This document shows positions 1,296 through 11,576 of a stretch of 11,576 bases of DNA, piece by piece. The translations under genes and the position numbers were made by a program. Source of the stretch: an uncultured Bacilli bacterium (GTDB taxonomy: Bacteria; Bacillota_I; Bacilli_A; RF39; UBA660). The DNA lies in assembly GCA_934133155.1 (NCBI GenBank), contig CAKPAT010000035.1, forward strand, positions 1 to 11,576. The letters are read 5' to 3'. Below the pieces are notes generated by a model, which ran no database searches, had not been told where the DNA came from, and was given only the letters and a program-made list of their open reading frames with translations. Position 1 is the first letter of the stretch, and each line of letters begins with the position of its first letter.

Positions 1296-1952
1296 ATGAA
1301 ATGTGATAAATGTGGTAGAGAACTTGAAGAAGGGGAAGTTTGTGCGTGCAAGTTTAAGCATGATTTTAAATTTAAAGATAATATACTTGGTTTAAAAGAT
1401 ATTTTTTTAAATCCTTCTAGTAGCTTAAAAAAATATAGTGAAGAGGGCAATTTTAATTTTTCTTTGATTTTTGTTTTAGTTTTAAGTGTTTTATCTGGTT
1501 TGTTTGGAATGCTTTTTGTTAAAGAAACGTTAGCTGTTCCGGTCAATAATTTTTTGGGTTATGCGGTGAGCTATAACATTGATTATTTCAGGATATTCAT
1601 TAATATTTTTATTTCTATTTGGAGTGGATTTATTCTTTTATCTTTGCTTATATATTTATTTTTTGGAAAGGTATTTAAATTAGATATTAATTTTAAGAAT
1701 TCTTTTAATATTGTAACTGGTAATTTTGTTTATTTTGGTTTAGCTTTAGTTTTAAGTTTTCTATTTATTTTTGTTAATGTTTGGTTTGTTTATATTTTTG
1801 CTGTACTTGCTTTTGTTTTATTTGTTTTAACTTTAGCTTTATTTTTCAGAGAAAGTTATGATTTAAAAGATTATAAGTGTATTTATGGTATACTGGGCAC
1901 TTTAATGAGCTTTTTCGTAATTATTCTTTTGATTTATAAAATTTTAAATTAA
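1296..1952 (+). CDS. zinc-ribbon / Yip1-like multispanning membrane protein
   Basis: A 218-residue protein that starts with a short zinc-ribbon-like knuckle (C3-x2-C6 ... C16-x-C18) facing the cytoplasm, followed by an amphipathic stretch KDIFLNPSSSLKKY (residues 34-47) typical of the segment before the membrane domain in Yip1-like proteins. Five hydrophobic segments follow at about 55-75, 99-123, 143-163, 163-184 and 196-215. No enzymatic motif is visible. Bacterial Yip1-like proteins with an N-terminal zinc ribbon are common in Firmicutes but have no agreed function. The start is secure: a perfect AGGAGG at 1281-1286 lies nine bases before ATG 1296. The stop is followed six bases later by the hairpin that precedes sigG, which could also terminate this transcript. 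Confidence 0.6.
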   Translation: MKCDKCGRELEEGEVCACKFKHDFKFKDNILGLKDIFLNPSSSLKKYSEEGNFNFSLIFVLVLSVLSGLFGMLFVKETLAVPVNNFLGYAVSYNIDYFRIFINIFISIWSGFILLSLLIYLFFGKVFKLDINFKNSFNIVTGNFVYFGLALVLSFLFIFVNVWFVYIFAVLAFVLFVLTLALFFRESYDLKDYKCIYGILGTLMSFFVIILLIYKILN

Positions 1953-1958
1953 TTGTAT

Positions 1959-2004
1959 AAAAAATCTCTTTTTGCACCATAACAGGTATGAAAGGAGATT
2001 TTTT
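1959..2004 (+). promoter_or_regulatory. RBS-occluding leader hairpin of sigG
   Basis: The left arm 1959-1974 (six A, TCTC, TTTTT, G) pairs with 1989-2004 (TG, AAAGGAGA, six T). This gives 16 consecutive pairs, three of them G-U; then one C-A mismatch, three more pairs (ACC 1976-1978 with GGT 1985-1987) and a six-base loop. The AAAGGAG Shine-Dalgarno of sigG (1991-1997) lies wholly in the 3' arm, so the folded leader would block ribosome entry. In Bacillus subtilis the sigG mRNA has a conserved leader hairpin that occludes the RBS and lowers translation several-fold; this looks like the counterpart. The A-run / stem / T-run layout also resembles an AT-rich bidirectional terminator, so attenuation is an alternative. 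No convincing SigF/SigG-type promoter was found upstream. Confidence 0.75.
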
Positions 2005-2005
2005 T

Positions 2006-2782
2006 ATGGCACGTCATAAAGTGGATATATGTGGCGTGAATACTGCGGATATTAGGGTTTTAAGCTCTCAAGAACAAGTTACTTTATTTAAGAGATATCA
2101 AAGTGGTGATATGCGGGCTAAAGAGGAACTGATTAACGGTAATTTGAAACTTGTTTTATCTATTTTGAAGAAGTATAGAAGCAGATGTGATAATATGGAT
2201 GATTTGTTTCAGGTGGGCTGCGTGGGGCTTATTAAAGCGATTGATAATTTTGATTTATCACATGATGTTAAGTTTTCAACTTATGCAGTTCCAATGATTT
2301 TGGGCGAAATTAAAAGATATTTAAGGGATAACAGTAGTTTAAGAACTCCTAGGAGTGTGAAAGATTTGGCTTATAAAATTTTGAAGTTTAAGGAGAATTT
2401 TATTAATGAAAATTTGAAAGAGCCATCTATAAAAGAGATTAGTTTAAGTTTGAATTTACCGGAGGTTGATGTTTATAATGCACTTAATTCTTTAAAAGAT
2501 ACGGTTAGTATGTTTGAACCAATTTATAATGATGGGGGAGACGTAATTTATTTAGCTGATCAGATTGGTAATCCGGATTATTTTTATGATTTAGAGACTA
2601 AAATTGCTTTGAGGGATGCTCTTTTGAAGATTAAGGATAAAGAAAGGTATGTGCTTATGGAAAGATATATAATGGGTAAAACGCAAACGGAATTAGCTGA
2701 AGAAATTGGAATTAGTCAGGCACAGATTTCTAGGCTGGAAAAAAGTGGGCTTAAGGTTTTAAAGAAGATTATCAATGGATAA
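2006..2782 (+). CDS. sigG: RNA polymerase sporulation sigma factor SigG
   Basis: Directs forespore-specific late transcription during endospore formation by guiding RNA polymerase to SigG promoters. The 258 residues (B. subtilis SigG is 260) begin MARHKVDICGVNT, the characteristic SigG N-terminus (K-V-[ED]-I-C-G-V-[DN]-T) not found in SigF. Region 2 is seen at about 36-110 (DDLFQVGCVGLIKAIDNFD at 65-83; FSTYAVPMILGEIKRYLRD at 90-108), region 3 at about 115-165, the FEPIYNDGGD linker at 170-179, and region 4 with the helix-turn-helix KTQTELAEEIGISQAQISRLEK at about 225-246, shown here only as endpoints. ATG 2006 is chosen because AAAGGAG lies eight bases before it and the SigG consensus starts there; an in-frame ATG at 1988 lies within the hairpin. 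Here sigG is not next to sigE/spoIIGA as it is in Bacillus. Confidence 0.96.
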   Translation: MARHKVDICGVNTADIRVLSSQEQVTLFKRYQSGDMRAKEELINGNLKLVLSILKKYRSRCDNMDDLFQVGCVGLIKAIDNFDLSHDVKFSTYAVPMILGEIKRYLRDNSSLRTPRSVKDLAYKILKFKENFINENLKEPSIKEISLSLNLPEVDVYNALNSLKDTVSMFEPIYNDGGDVIYLADQIGNPDYFYDLETKIALRDALLKIKDKERYVLMERYIMGKTQTELAEEIGISQAQISRLEKSGLKVLKKIING

Positions 2783-2850: not shown

Positions 2851-3177
2851 ATGAATAAGAAAGGTCAAGCTTTGGTTGAGTTTATTTTGATACTTCCTGT
2901 GCTTATTTTTATTCTTTTAGCTATCTTTGATGTTGGTATGCTTTTTATGAGTAAATATGATTTGAATAATAATTTAGATACTGTGGCCGATTTTTATATG
3001 AATGGGGAAGAGAAAAAAGCTTTGGCACTTGCTTCTTTAGATAATTTTAATATTGATACTAAAAATGAAGATGATATGCTTTTGATTACGGTTTCTAAAA
3101 AGATTGATACAACTTTTTTGAAAAATTATGAACTTAAAACTAGTAAGAGCATTTTTAAAGAGGAAAGTTATGAATAA
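2851..3177 (+). CDS. TadE-like pseudopilin / Tad assembly protein
   Basis: A 108-residue protein with a class III prepilin-type N-terminus: MNKKG, then QALVEF and a single hydrophobic helix to about residue 32 (FILILPVLIFILLAIFDVG). The G5-Q6 junction followed by Glu at mature position +5 (Q6-A-L-V-E10) is the classical TadE/TadF signature, cleaved by a TadV/CpaA-like prepilin peptidase. The rest is a small, polar domain, probably extracellular. TadE-like proteins are minor pilins or assembly factors of Tad (type IVc) pili, and position as first gene of a run of tad genes supports this. The 3' end overlaps the next gene by eight bases. No prepilin peptidase is present in the window, so processing must rely on one encoded elsewhere. 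Confidence 0.85.
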   Translation: MNKKGQALVEFILILPVLIFILLAIFDVGMLFMSKYDLNNNLDTVADFYMNGEEKKALALASLDNFNIDTKNEDDMLLITVSKKIDTTFLKNYELKTSKSIFKEESYE

Positions 3178-3523
3178 CCGAGGTCAGAGTTTAGTGGTGT
3201 TTGTTTTGCTTTTGCCTTTAATTTTTATTTTGATTATGATTATCGTCGAAGTTGGTAATTTGGGTATTTTAAAAAGTAAGGATGAAAGTGAAATTAAAAG
3301 GGCGATTAGTTATGGCTTTAGACATTTATCTGATGATGATGTTTTTGATAATATGTATAAGCTTATTTCTAAAAATACTGATGGCACAGCCAGTGTTAGT
3401 TATGATGGTAATTTAATTAAGGTTAGTTTTAAGGAAGATAATGTTGGTATTATTTTAAAAAAATTTGATATTGATGTTACTTATGTAGGTGATGTTAATA
3501 GTAAGAAGATTTATAAGGAATAG
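3170..3523 (+). CDS. second TadE-like pseudopilin
   Basis: A 117-residue protein starting MNNRG-QSLVVF, with one hydrophobic helix (about residues 8-27, LVVFVLLLPLIFILIMIIVE) and a small C-terminal domain of about 85 residues ending in a likely beta-rich segment (TASVSYDGNLIKVSF). The layout matches TadE/TadF/TadG-like minor pseudopilins, but mature position +5 is Val rather than the usual Glu. I chose ATG 3170: AGAGGAAAG lies just upstream, and starting there puts the cleavage motif at the N-terminus as in its neighbour. The longer in-frame start at 3128 would bury the motif behind 14 extra residues. The start lies inside the 3' end of the preceding gene, so translation is probably coupled. 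Confidence 0.8.
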   Translation: MNNRGQSLVVFVLLLPLIFILIMIIVEVGNLGILKSKDESEIKRAISYGFRHLSDDDVFDNMYKLISKNTDGTASVSYDGNLIKVSFKEDNVGIILKKFDIDVTYVGDVNSKKIYKE

Positions 3524-3534
3524 AGGCGGTTTAT

Positions 3535-4278
3535 GTGGCTTTAAATCAAGCACAAATTATTACAGTTACTTCGGTTAAAGGTGGTACAGGTAAAACAACG
3601 CTTACTTTATGTTTAGCTGGTATTTTATCTTTGAAAAAGAAGAAAACGATTATTGTTGATTTTGATATGCATGCGGGAACTATTGCAGCTAGTTTAAATG
3701 TGCCTTTTAATAAGGATTTATATGTTTTAACGGACGATATTGGCAATAATAGGTTTGGTAATATTGAAGATTATATTTTTAAATATAATGATTTTATTGA
3801 TGTCTTGCCGGCACCAAAAGATCCTAGGAATGCTTATAAGATTAACTCTAAATATGTAAGTATTATTTTGGATTATTTAAGGTTTAAATATGATGTTATT
3901 TTGATTGACACTAATCACATTATTGATAATATTAATTTAATTACCTTCGATCATAGTGATACGATTATTTATTCGGTAACTAGTGATTTAATGGATTTAA
4001 AAAATATGAAAACAATGCTTTCTATTTATCAAGATATGTCTTCTTTTAAGTATGTACTTGTTTTGAATGAGGCTTTAAATAGGGAACTTTTGACTTCTTA
4101 TGATGCAAGTACGATTTTAGGTGTAGATATTAAGTATGTTATTCCGAAGTCTTTTTATATGAAAAATATGCAAAAAGTTATTCAAAATGGTGAGGTTTTA
4201 ACTCTTCTTCCTTATTTACAAAAGTCTAAGGGGTATAAGGTTTTAGAAAGTTTAGTTAATGATGTTTTAAAGGGGTGA
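3535..4278 (+). CDS. TadZ/CpaE-type MinD-like ATPase
   Basis: A 247-residue P-loop ATPase of the ParA/MinD superfamily. The deviant Walker A is SVKGGTGKTT (residues 13-22, with signature K15 and K20), the A' region IIVDFDMHAG is at 39-48 (D42, D44), and Walker B is YDVILIDT at 119-126 (D125). In Tad systems TadZ/CpaE localises and helps assemble the secretion machine at the inner face of the membrane; its place just before TadA supports that role. The N-terminal receiver-like domain of Caulobacter-type CpaE is absent: the P-loop begins at residue 13. The start is GTG 3535, preceded by AGAGGCGG (3522-3529). The ATG two bases earlier (3533) is in another frame and stops after three codons. Confidence 0.85.
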   Translation: MALNQAQIITVTSVKGGTGKTTLTLCLAGILSLKKKKTIIVDFDMHAGTIAASLNVPFNKDLYVLTDDIGNNRFGNIEDYIFKYNDFIDVLPAPKDPRNAYKINSKYVSIILDYLRFKYDVILIDTNHIIDNINLITFDHSDTIIYSVTSDLMDLKNMKTMLSIYQDMSSFKYVLVLNEALNRELLTSYDASTILGVDIKYVIPKSFYMKNMQKVIQNGEVLTLLPYLQKSKGYKVLESLVNDVLKG

Positions 4279-4282
4279 GGTT

Positions 4283-5608
4283 ATGGAAGCTAAAAAGTTT
4301 ACGCAAGAGTTTGCTTATGAAGAAAATAACAATTTAGTACGTCAAGTTGATGATTATGATGAGTTTCCGAATAAAGATTTACTTGATAAGCTTCGCAGTA
4401 GGATTATTCAGAATATTATTGATAATGATGCTTCAAATAATAATTCAATGGGTGAATTTATTAAAGAGCAAATTGATAGGACTATTGAAGGATATGACCT
4501 TACTAATGAAGAGAGAAGTTATATTTATAATTTAATTGATAATGAGATTAATGGTTTTGGCCCTTTAACGGAACTTTTGGATGATAAGTCTATTACGGAG
4601 ATTATGGTTAATAGTCCTAATGAAATTTATGTGGAACTTGATGGTAAAATTATTCGTGATAGTAGTGTTAGTTTTATTAATAAGGAACATATCGTAAGGG
4701 TTATTCAAAGGTTAATTCAGCCGATTGGTAAGACAATTGATGTGGCTCATCCGATGGTTGATGCAAGGCTTTCTGACGGTTCAAGACTTAATGCGGTTTT
4801 GCCTCCTTTATCTTTAAATGGTCCGGTACTTACTATTCGTAAGTTTAAGGCGGAGCTTGCCAATATTGAGGATTTTTTAAGGACTGGTACTTTGACGCCT
4901 TATATGGCAAGATTTTTAGCAGCGTGTGTGCATGCTAAACTTAATATTATTGTTGTTGGTGGTACTGGTGCTGGTAAGACAACGCTTTTGAATGTTTTAT
5001 CTTCGTTTTGTTCGCCGGATGATCGTATTATTACGATTGAGGATGCAGCGGAACTTAAGCTTAAGCAGTCGCATGTTATTTCTTTGGAAACTAGAACTAC
5101 TAATTATGATGGTGGTGGTGCGATTACAATAAGGGATTTAGTTATTAATTCTCTTAGAATGAGGCCAGATAGAATTATTGTTGGTGAGGTTCGTGGTAAG
5201 GAAGCTTTTGATATGCTTCAAGCTATGAACACTGGTCATGATGGTAGTATGACGACTATGCATGCGAACTCTCCGGTTGATGCTTTAAATAGGCTTGAGA
5301 CGATGGTTTTAATGAATGGGGTGGAAATTCCTGTTAGTGCTATTCGTGAATATATTGAGAGTGCTATTCAAATTGTTGTTCAGGTTAAAAGACTTTCTGA
5401 TGGTAGAAGACGTGTTAGTAGTATTACAGAAATTATAGGCCTAGAAAATGGAGAAATTATTCAAAAAGAAATTTTTCAGTTTAAACAGACGGATGTTTTG
5501 CCAAATGGTGATGTTGTTGGTGAATTTTTAATGCATGATTATGTGCCTAAGGTTTATAGTAGAATTAAGGCTAAGGGCATTGACGATTTGGATGATATTT
5601 TTAATTGA
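4283..5608 (+). CDS. tadA: TadA/CpaF secretion ATPase
   Basis: Hexameric cytoplasmic motor of the Tad pilus, a member of the type II/IV secretion (VirB11-like) ATPases. The 441 residues are typical in length. After a variable N-terminus (1-70) comes the N-terminal domain with GFGPLTELLDD (91-101) and ITEIMVNSPNEIYVE (104-118). Next are the basic IRKF site (185-188), Walker A GGTGAGKTT (226-234), the acidic box TIEDAAELKL (251-260), Walker B RIIVGEVRG (297-305) and the His box TGHDGSMTTMHANS (317-330). All expected catalytic motifs are present, so the enzyme should be active. It is four bases after the TadZ stop, with a GGGGTGAGG Shine-Dalgarno. It would power TadB/TadC for filament extension, and possibly retraction, as Caulobacter CpaF is reported to do. 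Confidence 0.95.
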   Translation: MEAKKFTQEFAYEENNNLVRQVDDYDEFPNKDLLDKLRSRIIQNIIDNDASNNNSMGEFIKEQIDRTIEGYDLTNEERSYIYNLIDNEINGFGPLTELLDDKSITEIMVNSPNEIYVELDGKIIRDSSVSFINKEHIVRVIQRLIQPIGKTIDVAHPMVDARLSDGSRLNAVLPPLSLNGPVLTIRKFKAELANIEDFLRTGTLTPYMARFLAACVHAKLNIIVVGGTGAGKTTLLNVLSSFCSPDDRIITIEDAAELKLKQSHVISLETRTTNYDGGGAITIRDLVINSLRMRPDRIIVGEVRGKEAFDMLQAMNTGHDGSMTTMHANSPVDALNRLETMVLMNGVEIPVSAIREYIESAIQIVVQVKRLSDGRRRVSSITEIIGLENGEIIQKEIFQFKQTDVLPNGDVVGEFLMHDYVPKVYSRIKAKGIDDLDDIFN

Positions 5609-5627
5609 TTAGTGGGGAGGTAATGTT

Positions 5628-7100
5628 ATGGATGCTTTTCAGTTTAATATAAATAGTGCTAAGCCAACTAATCAAACTATTAATGTTGTTTTCACTAAAA
5701 GTTCTGATGTTACCTCTTATGTTTATCAGATATATAAAGATGGTAATGTTATTTTTGAAAAGGAAAGTGATTTAGAAAGTACTTCTATTTATTTATCTGA
5801 AACAGGTAATTATCAGATTGTTATTACGGCTAATTTGAAAAATGGTTTTTCTAAGACTATTCAAAGTGGGGTTTATGCGGTTGATAAGGAGCTTCCGGTG
5901 ATTGAGATTTCTTCTGACAGTATAAAAATTAATAAGGGTGAGAAGATTGATTTAGCTATTAAAGCTTCTGATAATGTTGATGGTGATATTACAACTTTGG
6001 TGACAAGTAATGCTTCAGATATTGCGAGTACTGGTGGTGAGCTTGTTTATACGGTAACGGATAGTGCAGGGAATACGGCTTATAAAAGTGTTGATGTGAG
6101 TATTGTTCATGGCAATTTGCTTTTTTTACAGGTTGTTATTATTGCTGTTTTACTTTTTGTTATTTATTTGATGTTTAGATTTTTAAATACCTTAAAGTTT
6201 GAAAAGAGAATTACACCTTTCGTGATTGAACCTTTTGAAAATAATGATCCGACATTTTTTGATAAGTTTTTTGGACTTTATGATCGAATTATTTCTAAGG
6301 TGGGGCATGTTTTTGAAAAGTCTATTTTTATAAAGAAATATGCTGATAGGCTTGATAAATATGCGATTGTTTCTTCTTTTCATAAAAATGGTTTAGATAT
6401 TTTTAGTGGTAAGATTGTGATTGGCATTTGTTTTTGTTTGATTGCGATTGTTGCGAAAGCTTTACAACTTAAGGTAATAGATTCTTCGGAACTTATACTT
6501 GTATTTACTTTAGGCTTCTTTGTTTTAGATGTTTTACTTATGGCTAAATATAAGGTGTTCAGGTGGAAAGTGGAAAGTGATTTTATTGCAGCAATCACGA
6601 TTATGAATAATTCTTTTAAATCTGGAAGAAGTATTATTCAGGCGATTGATAATGTAAGCAGTGAACTTGATGGAATTATTGGCAGAGAGTTTAATAAAAT
6701 GAGTTTGGAACTTTTATATGGACTTTCTATTTCGGATGTTTTTAAAAGGTTTGCACATAGAATTGATTTAGAGGAAGCAAGTTATTTAACGGCGTCTTTA
6801 TCTATTTTGAATAAGACTGGCGGAAATATTACTGAGGTATTTTCTTCGATTGAAAGAAGTTTATTTGATAAAAGAAAACTTAGACTTGAGCTTAAGTCAC
6901 TTACTAGTGGCAGTAAACTTGTGGTGTTTGTTTTAATTGGTATTCCTTTTTTCTTTGTGTTTGTGGTAAGTTTGATTAATCCTGATTATTTTATGCCTTT
7001 TATTAATACATCTATTGGTAATATTTTACTTTTGTTTATGATTTTGTATTATATTATTTTTGTTATTTTCGTTAGAAAGGTAATGAAGGTGGTGATTTAA
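5628..7100 (+). CDS. TadB platform protein with N-terminal Ig-like ectodomain
   Basis: A 490-residue membrane protein, much longer than usual TadB (about 300). Residues 313-430 are a type II secretion F domain, flanked by membrane helices at about 263-280, 288-306, 431-450 and 464-482, the normal TadB core that couples to TadA. In front lie about 160 extra residues. Residues 1-87 are beta-rich with YKDGNVI and ETGNYQIVITAN, Ig/fibronectin-like; 88-160 match the bacterial Ig-like (DUF5011-type) pattern with NVDGDIT (117-122) and YTVTDSAGNTA (141-151). A helix at 164-184 follows, then a basic stretch (R184, K190, K193, R194). The positive-inside rule therefore puts the Ig region outside, yet no signal peptide exists, and an in-frame TAG at 5610-5612 excludes an upstream start. 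The Shine-Dalgarno is GGGGAGG (5613-5619). Confidence 0.85.
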   Translation: MDAFQFNINSAKPTNQTINVVFTKSSDVTSYVYQIYKDGNVIFEKESDLESTSIYLSETGNYQIVITANLKNGFSKTIQSGVYAVDKELPVIEISSDSIKINKGEKIDLAIKASDNVDGDITTLVTSNASDIASTGGELVYTVTDSAGNTAYKSVDVSIVHGNLLFLQVVIIAVLLFVIYLMFRFLNTLKFEKRITPFVIEPFENNDPTFFDKFFGLYDRIISKVGHVFEKSIFIKKYADRLDKYAIVSSFHKNGLDIFSGKIVIGICFCLIAIVAKALQLKVIDSSELILVFTLGFFVLDVLLMAKYKVFRWKVESDFIAAITIMNNSFKSGRSIIQAIDNVSSELDGIIGREFNKMSLELLYGLSISDVFKRFAHRIDLEEASYLTASLSILNKTGGNITEVFSSIERSLFDKRKLRLELKSLTSGSKLVVFVLIGIPFFFVFVVSLINPDYFMPFINTSIGNILLLFMILYYIIFVIFVRKVMKVVI

Positions 7101-7795
7101 TGAAGAGGAGTTTTATTCAAAAGATTTACCGCCTTAATGATATTGAAAGTTTAGAGAAGGATTTAAATTATTTAGGAAAAGAGGCTAAATATGATGCTTT
7201 AACATTTTGCAATATAAGACTTTTTACTAGTATTTTGGTGTTTGTTTTAGTTTTGTATATTAGTAAGATTGGCTATTTACTAGCACCTTTTGTTACTATT
7301 TTGTATTATTATGGATTTTATTATTATAATATTACTAGAAGAATTAGTTTACGAAATAAACGTTTGGAACATCAGTCTTTGTTTTTCTTTGAAATTTTAA
7401 CACTTACGTTAGAGTCTGGACGTAATTTGGAGAATGCTTTGAATGTTACTTGTGATAATGTTTCTTCGGATATTTCTTCGGAGTTTAAAGAGGCTTTAGA
7501 TGAGATGAAGTATGGAAAGTCTTTACTTGAAGCTTTAAGTGGTATTAAATCACGTATATCTTCGGATATTATTAATAATATTATACTAAATATTATGCAG
7601 ACTAGTGAGTTTGGAAATAGCATTATTGATACGCTTCATAATGAGGTTGATTTTTTAAGGGATAAACAGATTTTAGAGATTAAAGAGAAGATTAATAAGA
7701 TACCTAATAAGGTAAGTATTATTTCTGTTTTGTTTGTTGTTCCGCTTATTTTAGTTTTGATTTTAGGACCATACATAATTCAGTTTATTGGTTAA
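7100..7795 (+). CDS. TadC-like inner-membrane platform protein
   Basis: A 231-residue partner of TadB in the Tad platform. Two closely spaced N-terminal helices lie at about 41-57 and 58-76. They are followed by a type II secretion F domain (95-200) with FEILTLTLESGRNLENAL (about 97-114), MKYGKSLLEAL (136-146) and the TSEFGNSIIDTL stretch (168-179). A C-terminal helix (205-229) begins after EKINKIPNKV and ends in LILGPYIIQF; this ending is typical of TadC. Its ATG shares one base with the TadB stop (TAATG), indicating tight translational coupling, with GAAGGTGGTG just upstream. TadB and TadC are thought to form the membrane scaffold on which TadA acts. It is somewhat shorter than proteobacterial TadC, mainly at the N-terminus. 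Confidence 0.88.
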   Translation: MKRSFIQKIYRLNDIESLEKDLNYLGKEAKYDALTFCNIRLFTSILVFVLVLYISKIGYLLAPFVTILYYYGFYYYNITRRISLRNKRLEHQSLFFFEILTLTLESGRNLENALNVTCDNVSSDISSEFKEALDEMKYGKSLLEALSGIKSRISSDIINNIILNIMQTSEFGNSIIDTLHNEVDFLRDKQILEIKEKINKIPNKVSIISVLFVVPLILVLILGPYIIQFIG

Positions 7796-9601: not shown

Positions 9602-10246
9602 ATGAAAAAGAAAGGTTTTACTTTAATTGAGCTATTAGGTGTACTTGTTCTTCTTTCTGTAATACTCCTTATTATTGTCCCACCTATTACTAAGAGTATC
9701 AAAAGCGGACAGGATGATGCTTTAGAAAGACAAAAGGATAATATTGTTTTAAGTGCGAGAAATTGGAGTGCGGATAATAAGACAGAACTTCCAACTTCTG
9801 GTGAGATTAAAAGTGTTACTTTAAAAGAACTTCAAGAAGGTGGATATGCAGAGAAGAATATTAAAAATCCTAAGACTAATGAGGAATTAGATCCTGATAC
9901 TGTATGTGTTGATATTGAAAATAAAAATAATATTTATTATTATAATTATAATGAGCAATGTGCTTTTGGTGAAGCTTATACTGTTACTTATGATGGTAAT
10001 TTGGGTACTGTTTCTGGTGAGACTACTTTAAGACAGTATGCTAATAAAAATGTTGATTTATCTATCAGAGCTACTAGAAATGGTTGGATATTTGTTGGCT
10101 GGAGTACGGATAAGAATGAAAAAGAAGCTCTTAGTGAGTATAAAATGCCTAATAAGAATATAACTTTATATGCTATTTTTAAGAAAGCTGTTGTTGTTAG
10201 TTATAATGCTGAGGATAGTTTAACTATTAGTAAAAAGGCTGCCTAA
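9602..10246 (+). CDS. type IV prepilin-like protein with InlB-type repeats (N-terminal part, frameshifted)
   Basis: The N-terminus MKKKG-FTLIELLGVLVLLSV is a type IV prepilin leader: cleavage after G5, Phe at +1, Glu at +5, and a hydrophobic helix to about residue 28. Residues 38-120 form a pseudopilin-like head (SARNWSADNK, VTLKELQEGGY, IKNPKTNEELDP) with C102 and C120 likely paired. From residue 126 comes an InlB B-repeat / Flg_new module: YTVTYDG at 126-132, GWIFVGWSTD at 161-170 and MPNKNITLYAIF at 182-193. A second repeat begins at about 198 (VSYNAEDS), but the frame stops at TAA 10244-10246 partway through it. The repeat continues in the next frame, so this is the N-terminal third or less of a longer gene. 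AGGTG (9593-9597) precedes ATG 9602; it is coupled to the lipoprotein gene. Confidence 0.85.
   Translation: MKKKGFTLIELLGVLVLLSVILLIIVPPITKSIKSGQDDALERQKDNIVLSARNWSADNKTELPTSGEIKSVTLKELQEGGYAEKNIKNPKTNEELDPDTVCVDIENKNNIYYYNYNEQCAFGEAYTVTYDGNLGTVSGETTLRQYANKNVDLSIRATRNGWIFVGWSTDKNEKEALSEYKMPNKNITLYAIFKKAVVVSYNAEDSLTISKKAA
10224..10243 (+). other. frameshift site in the prepilin-like gene
   Basis: The upstream frame is open to 10243 and the downstream frame is open only from 10224, so the frame change must fall in these 20 bases. They contain an A5 run (10232-10236). Deleting one A turns S-K-K-A-A-stop into S-K-R-L-P-N-I-T-P, restoring the repeat pattern. Confidence 0.8.
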
Positions 10247-11576
10247 TATTACTCCTAAAAGTGGTTATACTACTTTGGGTTGGTATGACGGTAGTACTTT
10301 ATCTTGGGATGATGAGAAAAAAGGCATGTTTGGTTTAAATGCTACTAGTAAAAAAGTTGGTGAGTCTGGTGGCAAGCTTACTGTTAGTGATAGTATGAGT
10401 ATTACGGCTTTAGCAAGTACTGGTAATTATAAGTTGGTTTTTGATTATAAGACTAATGGTGGAACTAGTTTTACTTCAAGTATTGGAAGCGATACTGGTA
10501 ATTATGCATATGGTACAAAAATTTTGATAAATAATGTTGAAGGTATAAAATCTGGTTGGGTTTTTGTTGGCTGGAATACTGATAAAAATGCGAAAAACGG
10601 ATTATCTAGTTTTACTATGCCGGCTAATGATACAACTTTATATGCAATTTATAAGAAAGAAGCAATTATTTTATCTGCTACTTTTGATGGTAATGGTGCT
10701 TTGCTTAAGGATACTGATAGGACTAAATGCGTTTTGAAAGAAGTTTATAATAATGATGCTCAAAATACTAGTTGCATGGTTGATACTCCTGATTTTGAAA
10801 GAACTTCTTATACGAAAATTGGGTTTAGCTTAGATAGTACTTCGCATACTAGTGATAAAGCTTATAGTAATGGTAAAATTACTTTAACTGGTAGTAATAC
10901 TGATAAAACTTGGTATGCTATTACTAAAAAAGATATAAAGGTTTCATTTGTTGTTCAAGATACTAATGCAGCTAGCACTTCTGCTGATGCGGTTATTTGC
11001 TCTATTTATAATAAAGAATCTAACTGTGCTATTACTGTTCCAACTTTAACTGCTAGTAATGGTTATACAGCTATTGGATGGAATAAAAATAAAAATGCCA
11101 CTGAAAGTTCTTTAACTTTTGGTAGTAAGGTTTTATTTGAAGCAGATGATACTTATTATTCTATTACGAGAAAATCATCTGGACTAAAGGCCACATTTGT
11201 GGGAAATGGGGCAAGTGTTAGTAGTAGTTCAGTGTCTTGTTACGTATATAATGGTGCTAGTGGATGTTTTATAACTGTTCCAAGTATTATACGTGATGGA
11301 TTTGAAATTTTAGGCTTTAGTGAGGTCAAAGATAGTTACACGGCTAGTGTTAAAGCAGGTGCTAGTTTAAATATTACTAAAAATATAACTTTGTATGCGG
11401 TTACTCATAAAGATGTAACTATCACTTATGGTAAAGGTCATAATGTTGTAAGTATTGGTAAGGAAAATGACAGCTGCCCAATTTGGAATTCTTCAACCAA
11501 CTGTTCAGTTATTTTGCCAACAATTACGTCAGCTACTGGTTTTAAGGCTGATGGGTATTATAAAGATAGTACTAGG
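10224..11576 (+). CDS. continuation of the InlB-repeat prepilin-like protein in the +1 frame (3' partial)
   Basis: Reading in the frame of base 10242, no stop occurs from 10224 to the window end; from 10242 that is 445 codons. The translation begins LPNITPKSGYTTLGWYDG, the exact continuation expected for the repeat interrupted upstream, and then gives further InlB/Flg_new-like repeats: SGWVFVGWNTDKN, MPANDTTLYAIYKK, YTAIGWNKNKN, ITLYAVTHK. There is no plausible start codon with a Shine-Dalgarno at its head, so it is not an independent gene. Removing one A of the A5 run (10232-10236) fuses it to the preceding part as one protein of at least 658 residues. The C-terminus, and hence any wall anchor, lies outside the window. 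It is probably extracellular and adhesive. Whether the break is real or a sequencing indel is unresolved. Confidence 0.75.

Follow-up and report, generated by a model that had tools for sequence, protein, structure and literature searches.

The sigG gene of an uncultured Bacilli bacterium, carried by a stretch of 11,576 nucleotides that was analysed as a whole (hereafter the window), raises the question of why its Shine-Dalgarno sequence (SD) lies in one arm of a long hairpin. The original prediction was that this hairpin is the equivalent of a leader hairpin in Bacillus subtilis and damps the translation of sigG's own mRNA. We have compared this with other explanations, using the window itself and a collection of related sigG loci.

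The sigG locus and its hairpin

By best match the gene is SigG-type. Its product has its top matches to NF006071 (347 bits) and TIGR02850 (330 bits), with 250 bits for the SigF model TIGR02885. It scores below the NCBI curated cut-offs (372 and 457), though about 80 bits above SigF, and the SigG of a relative (G001) likewise falls below the curated cut-off. An in-frame ATG at 1988, 18 nt 5' of the likely start, would lengthen the protein by MKGDFF, and the program-made list of open reading frames has this ORF begin there.

The product of the upstream gene gives a weak Yip1 match, just below the gathering score, in a family profile search. On the 3' side of sigG, profile searches find TadE, ParA-like and type II secretion-like genes and murC; the Tad/type II secretion-like genes (TadE, ParA-like, T2SSE and T2SSF) follow immediately after sigG, at 2851-7795. 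At 9602-11576 a prepilin-like ORF stops at 10246 and similar repeats, read by eye, continue in another frame towards the window end, which would point to a frame break or an assembly error. An Rfam search of the window for riboswitches and other known RNAs gave no match at gathering score. The features around the start of sigG are as follows.

1296..1952, + strand, co-directional upstream gene (218 amino acids); its stop codon, 1950-1952, ends 1 base 5' of the -35 element
1954..1959, + strand, -35 element TGTATA, forespore-type (sigmaF/sigmaG-like), from a matrix built on sigG loci, the class being taken from the sigmaF/sigmaG consensus and the SASP genes of the order
1959..1978, + strand, hairpin left arm, from folding
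1960..1977, + strand, promoter spacer of 18 nt, AAAAATCTCTTTTTGCAC, encoding most of the left arm
1978..1984, + strand, -10 element CATAACA, of which the first base belongs to the closing pair of the stem and the remaining six make up the loop
1985..2004, + strand, hairpin right arm, from folding, which includes the SD together with most of the T-run
1990..1992, + strand, start of the sporulation mRNA as predicted from the position of the -10 element
1991..1997, + strand, Shine-Dalgarno AAAGGAG, from the sequence
1999..2005, + strand, T-run of 7 T between the SD and the start codon; an extension of the stem and a possible terminator U-tract
2006..2782, + strand, sigG coding region, 258 amino acids from the ATG at 2006

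Folding of positions 1955-2008 and 1940-2040 bears out the pairing that had been proposed. The hairpin spans 1959-2004 and has 19 pairs: 16 are continuous (1959-1974 with 1989-2004, three of them G-U), followed by a C-A mismatch (1975/1988) and three more (1976-1978 with 1985-1987) that enclose a loop at 1979-1984, and AAAGGAG is sequestered. The shorter fold has an energy of -17.7 kcal/mol (z -5.4), with none of 200 shuffles equally stable, and the wider fold gives z -5.0. In RNAs with their 5' ends at 1600, 1800, 1900 or 1950 the SD is predicted to be 0.2% unpaired; once the 5' end is at 1969 or later, the predicted unpaired fraction is 0.41-0.74. There is also a 9-pair stem at 2010-2038, at the beginning of the sigG coding region.

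A predicted forespore-type promoter within the hairpin

The first set for comparison comprised 80 related sigG loci (37-75% identity) from named genome contigs, for the most part MAGs of uncultured Bacilli; one genus among these relatives, Candidatus Aphodocola, is placed by NCBI under Bacilli incertae sedis. In the order to which relative G001 belongs, a search matched 252 of 288 genomes at E 1e-55 or better, and supplied 30 loci and 117 stretches around further matches, all among the matches listed. Removal of a partial match (L080) and of duplicates reduced 227 upstream regions to 210, the window included; G181 (internal stop) and G006 and G008 (already included) were left out of the set. 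Nine of the 210 regions had a promoter score of 8.6 or less and were dropped, leaving 201 loci.

These 201 loci were classed by their nearest upstream ORF and by the presence of a terminator-like hairpin 5' of the -35 element. Both calls are mechanical, and the terminator cut-off of -5 kcal/mol was set once. A locus is termed exposed if it has a co-directional neighbour, no terminator and a gap of up to 60 nt, and insulated if a co-directional neighbour is followed by a terminator. A hairpin is termed strong at -9 kcal/mol or stronger.

In the window, the left arm (1959-1978) overlaps the interval from the -35 to the -10 element (1954-1984). The iteratively trained matrix reads TG[AT]ATAAA, then CA[TA][AT]A[TC]A, and the distance from TGNATA to CA is 18 nt in about 86% of cases. 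The motif exceeds the 99th background percentile in 201 of the 210 sigG upstream regions, as scored by a matrix trained on the same loci; the background is the same scan applied 315-400 nt upstream in 202 regions. The C of the -10 element lies 16 nt from the GG of the SD in 122/210 loci. A strict promoter-plus-SD pattern was searched in 60 genomes and occurs at 15 sites, spread over 13 of them; seven of these sites are sampled sigG loci and an eighth lies near a spoIIGA.

The motif fits the sigmaF/sigmaG consensus. SASP genes are a standard target of sigmaG. Such a gene was found in 63 of 117 genomes of the order, often with TGTATG-N17-CATTCTA and a similarly spaced SD. In a promoter scan of 30 SASP loci, several of which look mislocated, 14 exceed the 95th percentile of the null and seven the 99th. 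In these loci (L279-L308) the promoter is of sigmaG type, and the SD lies about 17 nt past the C of the -10 element. Many of them also have TGTACA flanking the -10 element on both sides, a second case of an inverted repeat embedded in a promoter.

RNA from the forespore-type promoter of sigG should start near 1991, about at the SD. Such an RNA would therefore be without the left arm, and the stem could not form in it, if the start is where we predict it. The whole promoter-initiated RNA of the window has no unusual stability (z -0.48). The original prediction had itself named a sigG start downstream of 1974, leaving the left arm out of the mRNA, as the case that would tell against it, and this is where the predicted start falls. 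With the left arm inside the promoter and predicted to be absent from the promoter RNA, the proposal of a B. subtilis-like leader hairpin acting on sigG's own mRNA is not upheld.

The spacer and the SD region covary across loci. Against their own SD regions, the spacers of the 201 loci have a mean duplex energy of -10.2 kcal/mol. Exchanged spacers average -7.2 kcal/mol (10,000 permutations, best -7.7, z -21, a contrast to which relatedness contributes) and shuffled spacers -4.3 kcal/mol. The value of -9 kcal/mol is reached by 123/201 own pairs and by 33% of exchanged pairs. This swap test does not depend on register and is the main evidence of covariation.

Pair counting was applied to 38 exposed, non-redundant loci, which were aligned without gaps and had been chosen without regard to hairpin strength or pairing. 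The covariation score of 0.254 in the register of the window exceeds all 500 shuffles, every slid register gives at most 0.198, and 12 of 17 stem pairs are altered on both sides in some row. Two of the five measures are, though, also reached by 7/500 shuffles, and a slide of the register by -1 brings a small rise on two counts. RNAalifold found no consensus structure in the promoter-anchored alignment of the 38 exposed loci. The register of the stem relative to the promoter varies, being 55 in 31 of 74 strong loci and between 50 and 60 in the other 43. Covariation is seen by swapping and by pair counting.

Hairpin strength and the upstream neighbour

The presence of the hairpin is associated with unprotected co-directional neighbours. 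A strong hairpin occurs in 89/105 exposed loci (median -14.1 kcal/mol) and in five of the six loci with a co-directional neighbour at a longer gap. The corresponding figures are 14/55 where the co-directional neighbour is followed by a terminator (median -5.2), 13/30 where the neighbour is divergent (median -6.9) and 2/5 where no neighbour was called. There are exceptions: 16/105 exposed loci are without a strong hairpin and 27/85 insulated or divergent loci have one. Seven loci (L038, L042, L044, L078, L160, L189 and L192) are called divergent, mostly on a small ORF of about 80 amino acids, and have a strong hairpin, contrary to the rule.

The paired tests omit seven ambiguous loci and the five without a called neighbour. 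When each exposed locus is compared with its nearest insulated or divergent locus (by N-terminal identity), the hairpin of the exposed member is the stronger one in 72 of 85 pairs; the rule is followed in 32/36 pairs at 80% identity or more, but in only 1/3 at 90% or more. Independent pairs, taken as supported, non-overlapping paths through a SigG tree of 201 rows, give 9.3 for and 0.3 against of 14 (median p 0.004). Exposed loci compared with terminator-bearing loci alone give 7.0 to 0.1 of 12 (p 0.016), and with divergent loci alone 3.7 to 0.7 of 6 (p 0.38, not significant). The 201-row tree is weakly resolved, with strong support for 36 of its 198 inner branches, because more than 100 rows hold only about a third of SigG. 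In a tree of full-length sequences only, the pairs stand at 6.1 to 0.3 of 12, the median p being 0.06 with the cut at -9 and 0.016 with it at -7. The fewest changes needed are 21 for the hairpin and 22 for exposure on the full-length tree, and 43 and 42 on the larger, poorly resolved tree.

That the hairpin accompanies sigG beside differing upstream genes, as had been suggested, is confirmed: the 166 co-directional upstream proteins form 88 single-linkage clusters, short ORFs being counted as singletons. Ten upstream neighbours that were scanned include PriA, formate-THF ligase, ThyX, TtcA-like, DeoD, SigE, TrmL-like and RluA-family proteins, and two without a family match. SpoIIGA is found in 51/60 genomes of the order, which are therefore probably spore formers. 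In some genomes sigG still lies behind sigE and in others it has been relocated beside housekeeping genes. The statement that the gene is outside any spoIIGA-sigE-sigG cluster holds for the 1.95 kb visible upstream in the window; in some relatives sigE is still found immediately upstream or at a distance of about 2 kb. Relative G001 has two sets of spoIIGA, sigE-like gene and sigG (C28:76744-81179 and C1:325-3995), possibly from a strain mixture in the assembly, C1 being only a 4-kb contig.

Relatives lacking the pairing had been named as evidence against a conserved hairpin. Taken literally, this describes the closest relatives, L001-L006 (-1.3 to -5.7 kcal/mol), but five of them score an upstream terminator, and in L006 the upstream terminator-like hairpin, at -4.6 kcal/mol, is just short of the cut-off.

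The same division is seen in the predicted openness of the SD. Among 104 exposed loci its median is 0.002 in read-through RNA compared with 0.80 in promoter RNA, and values below 0.1 are predicted for 86/104 in the former and 0/104 in the latter. Medians in read-through RNA are 0.36 for the 55 insulated loci and 0.26 for the 30 divergent loci. An SD less than 0.05 unpaired is far more frequent in sigG (0.539 of 206, about 111) than among other genes in the sampled loci (0.066 of 273, about 18). In a second control set, such an SD is found in 20/161 genes with a co-directional neighbour ending within 90 nt of the start and in 9/186 of the remaining genes, a mild enrichment beside abutting co-directional neighbours.

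Read-through, other explanations and known systems

The best explanation of the hairpin, and one we consider probable, is a lock against read-through that is embedded in the promoter. RNA running in from the upstream gene would have both arms and would fold, so that the sigG SD would be buried and the gene left untranslated; this RNA may also be terminated at the U-run. Polymerase carrying sigmaF or sigmaG would initiate at a promoter whose spacer encodes the left arm, and its RNA, starting at the SD, would not fold and would be translated. Synthesis of SigG would thus be set by the point of origin of the transcript.

The T-run bears on the part played by termination. At least five T among the seven positions after the SD are found in 94/104 exposed loci compared with 18/55 insulated and 15/30 divergent loci, and termination may therefore act alongside the hiding of the SD; the attenuator-like role that had been proposed may apply, as a U-run follows the stem. 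These counts, and the stand-alone terminators that take the place of the hairpin at other loci, would also suit an element that serves mainly as an intrinsic terminator for the upstream unit, overlapping the start of sigG and pairing with the SD only as a by-product. Yet the T-run pairs with the A-run after the -35 element and is expected from stem extension, it is absent from 5/92 strong exposed hairpins, five of the six longer-gap loci still have their strong hairpin at the SD, and the stem with its 7 T is not reported by a consensus terminator scan. We regard a primarily terminating role as unlikely. It is highly improbable that the inverted repeat acts at the DNA level and serves a dimeric regulator of PsigG as its operator: it does span the promoter, but the arm sequences differ between loci and covary with the flanks of the SD, and the presence of the hairpin tracks the neighbour and not the promoter. 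As for chance complementarity within an AT-rich region, CT-rich spacers pair with any AAAGGAG, as the 33% of swapped pairs reaching -9 kcal/mol illustrates, but the 0/200 shuffles, the z of -21 for own against swapped spacers and the rarity of a buried SD in other genes (about 18/273) make it scarcely credible.

A leader hairpin damping translation of sigG's own mRNA has a precedent in B. subtilis, where a small hairpin acts in this way: 5 bp within the 30-nt leader of the PsigG RNA pair with the ribosome binding site (RBS), and hairpins of similar energy are predicted in 15/15 Bacilli and 4/13 Clostridia (PMC5942855). The window hairpin resembles it in pairing with the sigG RBS, but it has 19 pairs instead of five, and its left arm lies 5' of the predicted start and not within the leader; the SD is predicted to be 0.41-0.74 unpaired with 5' ends from 1969. 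We consider this explanation very unlikely. Identity of the window hairpin with the small B. subtilis hairpin was rejected, since the left arm is situated between the -35 and -10 elements, upstream of the predicted start.

The lock against read-through is closer to a second B. subtilis structure, a hairpin of 20 or more bp that was proposed to block read-through from spoIIGA-sigE and that cannot form in PsigG RNA (PMC5942855, citing Masuda 1988 and Sun 1991). Both hairpins include the sigG RBS, the one in the window having 19 pairs and being predicted to be absent from promoter RNA. In B. subtilis, as described there, the read-through comes from spoIIGA-sigE; in the window it would come from a Yip1-like gene and in relatives from many unrelated genes. 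The filling of the promoter spacer by one arm, the SD at the predicted start and a presence that tracks the neighbour set the present case apart from what is described there. The window hairpin resembles the B. subtilis read-through hairpin in its presumed working but is not classed as the same case, because its upstream gene is Yip1-like and not spoIIGA-sigE. The sigG gene of C. difficile is likewise preceded by spoIIGA-sigE, and its transcription from two promoters was inferred (PMC3789822).

Similar arrangements occur outside sporulation. In the transposase gene of IS10/Tn10, the RBS is covered by folding in RNA that comes from outside promoters but not in the native transcript; that is a mobile element of unrelated sequence. 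For gene e (lysozyme) and I-TevI of phage T4, a long early RNA hides the RBS and late-promoter RNA escapes; the late promoters sit inside or beside the 5' strand of the hairpin, and the translation block was measured there (PMC3014915). As in gene e, the sequence layout of the window places a developmental promoter (here with a predicted start) in the 5' part of the structure. Unlike the window, that system consists of phage genes and promoters, and no shared ancestry is claimed. A literature search for similar devices gave none relevant among 10 titles out of 126, and we do not assert that the neighbour rule is unpublished.

SigG promotes its own transcription. In B. subtilis cells without the anti-sigma factor CsfB, misexpression of sigG during growth makes the cells sickly (PMC5942855). 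We infer selection against SigG outside the forespore. On balance we favour the view that, in this order of gut Bacilli, about 46 nt combine a forespore promoter, a translation lock and perhaps a terminator to form a checkpoint for SigG based on transcript origin. The checkpoint would have been gained and lost repeatedly with changes of neighbour, sigG being shielded interchangeably by a terminator, a divergent neighbour or the hairpin. A lock that reads transcript origin would allow safe relocation of sigG behind housekeeping genes, and a promoter placed within a hairpin would be a compact means of deafening a gene to upstream transcription. Through the neighbour rule, the single-species proposal of 1988 can be tested by comparison, with clear predictions, and one sees how the timing of a developmental gene may survive genome rearrangement.

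The original prediction also extended the control to deep branches of the Firmicutes. Twenty sigG loci were found only by a search of the phylum, one of which (L260) duplicates L058; six of the 19 scored have an SD less than 0.05 unpaired, and one of the six (L247) is closed in the short RNA too. This no more than suggests wide conservation, the feature being modestly present outside the sampled order. By eye, L239, L242, L244 and L246 share a recurring GTTGC/GCAAC pair, with the left part 5' of a CATA-type -10 element and the right part abutting the SD, which is perhaps a related arrangement in other lineages.
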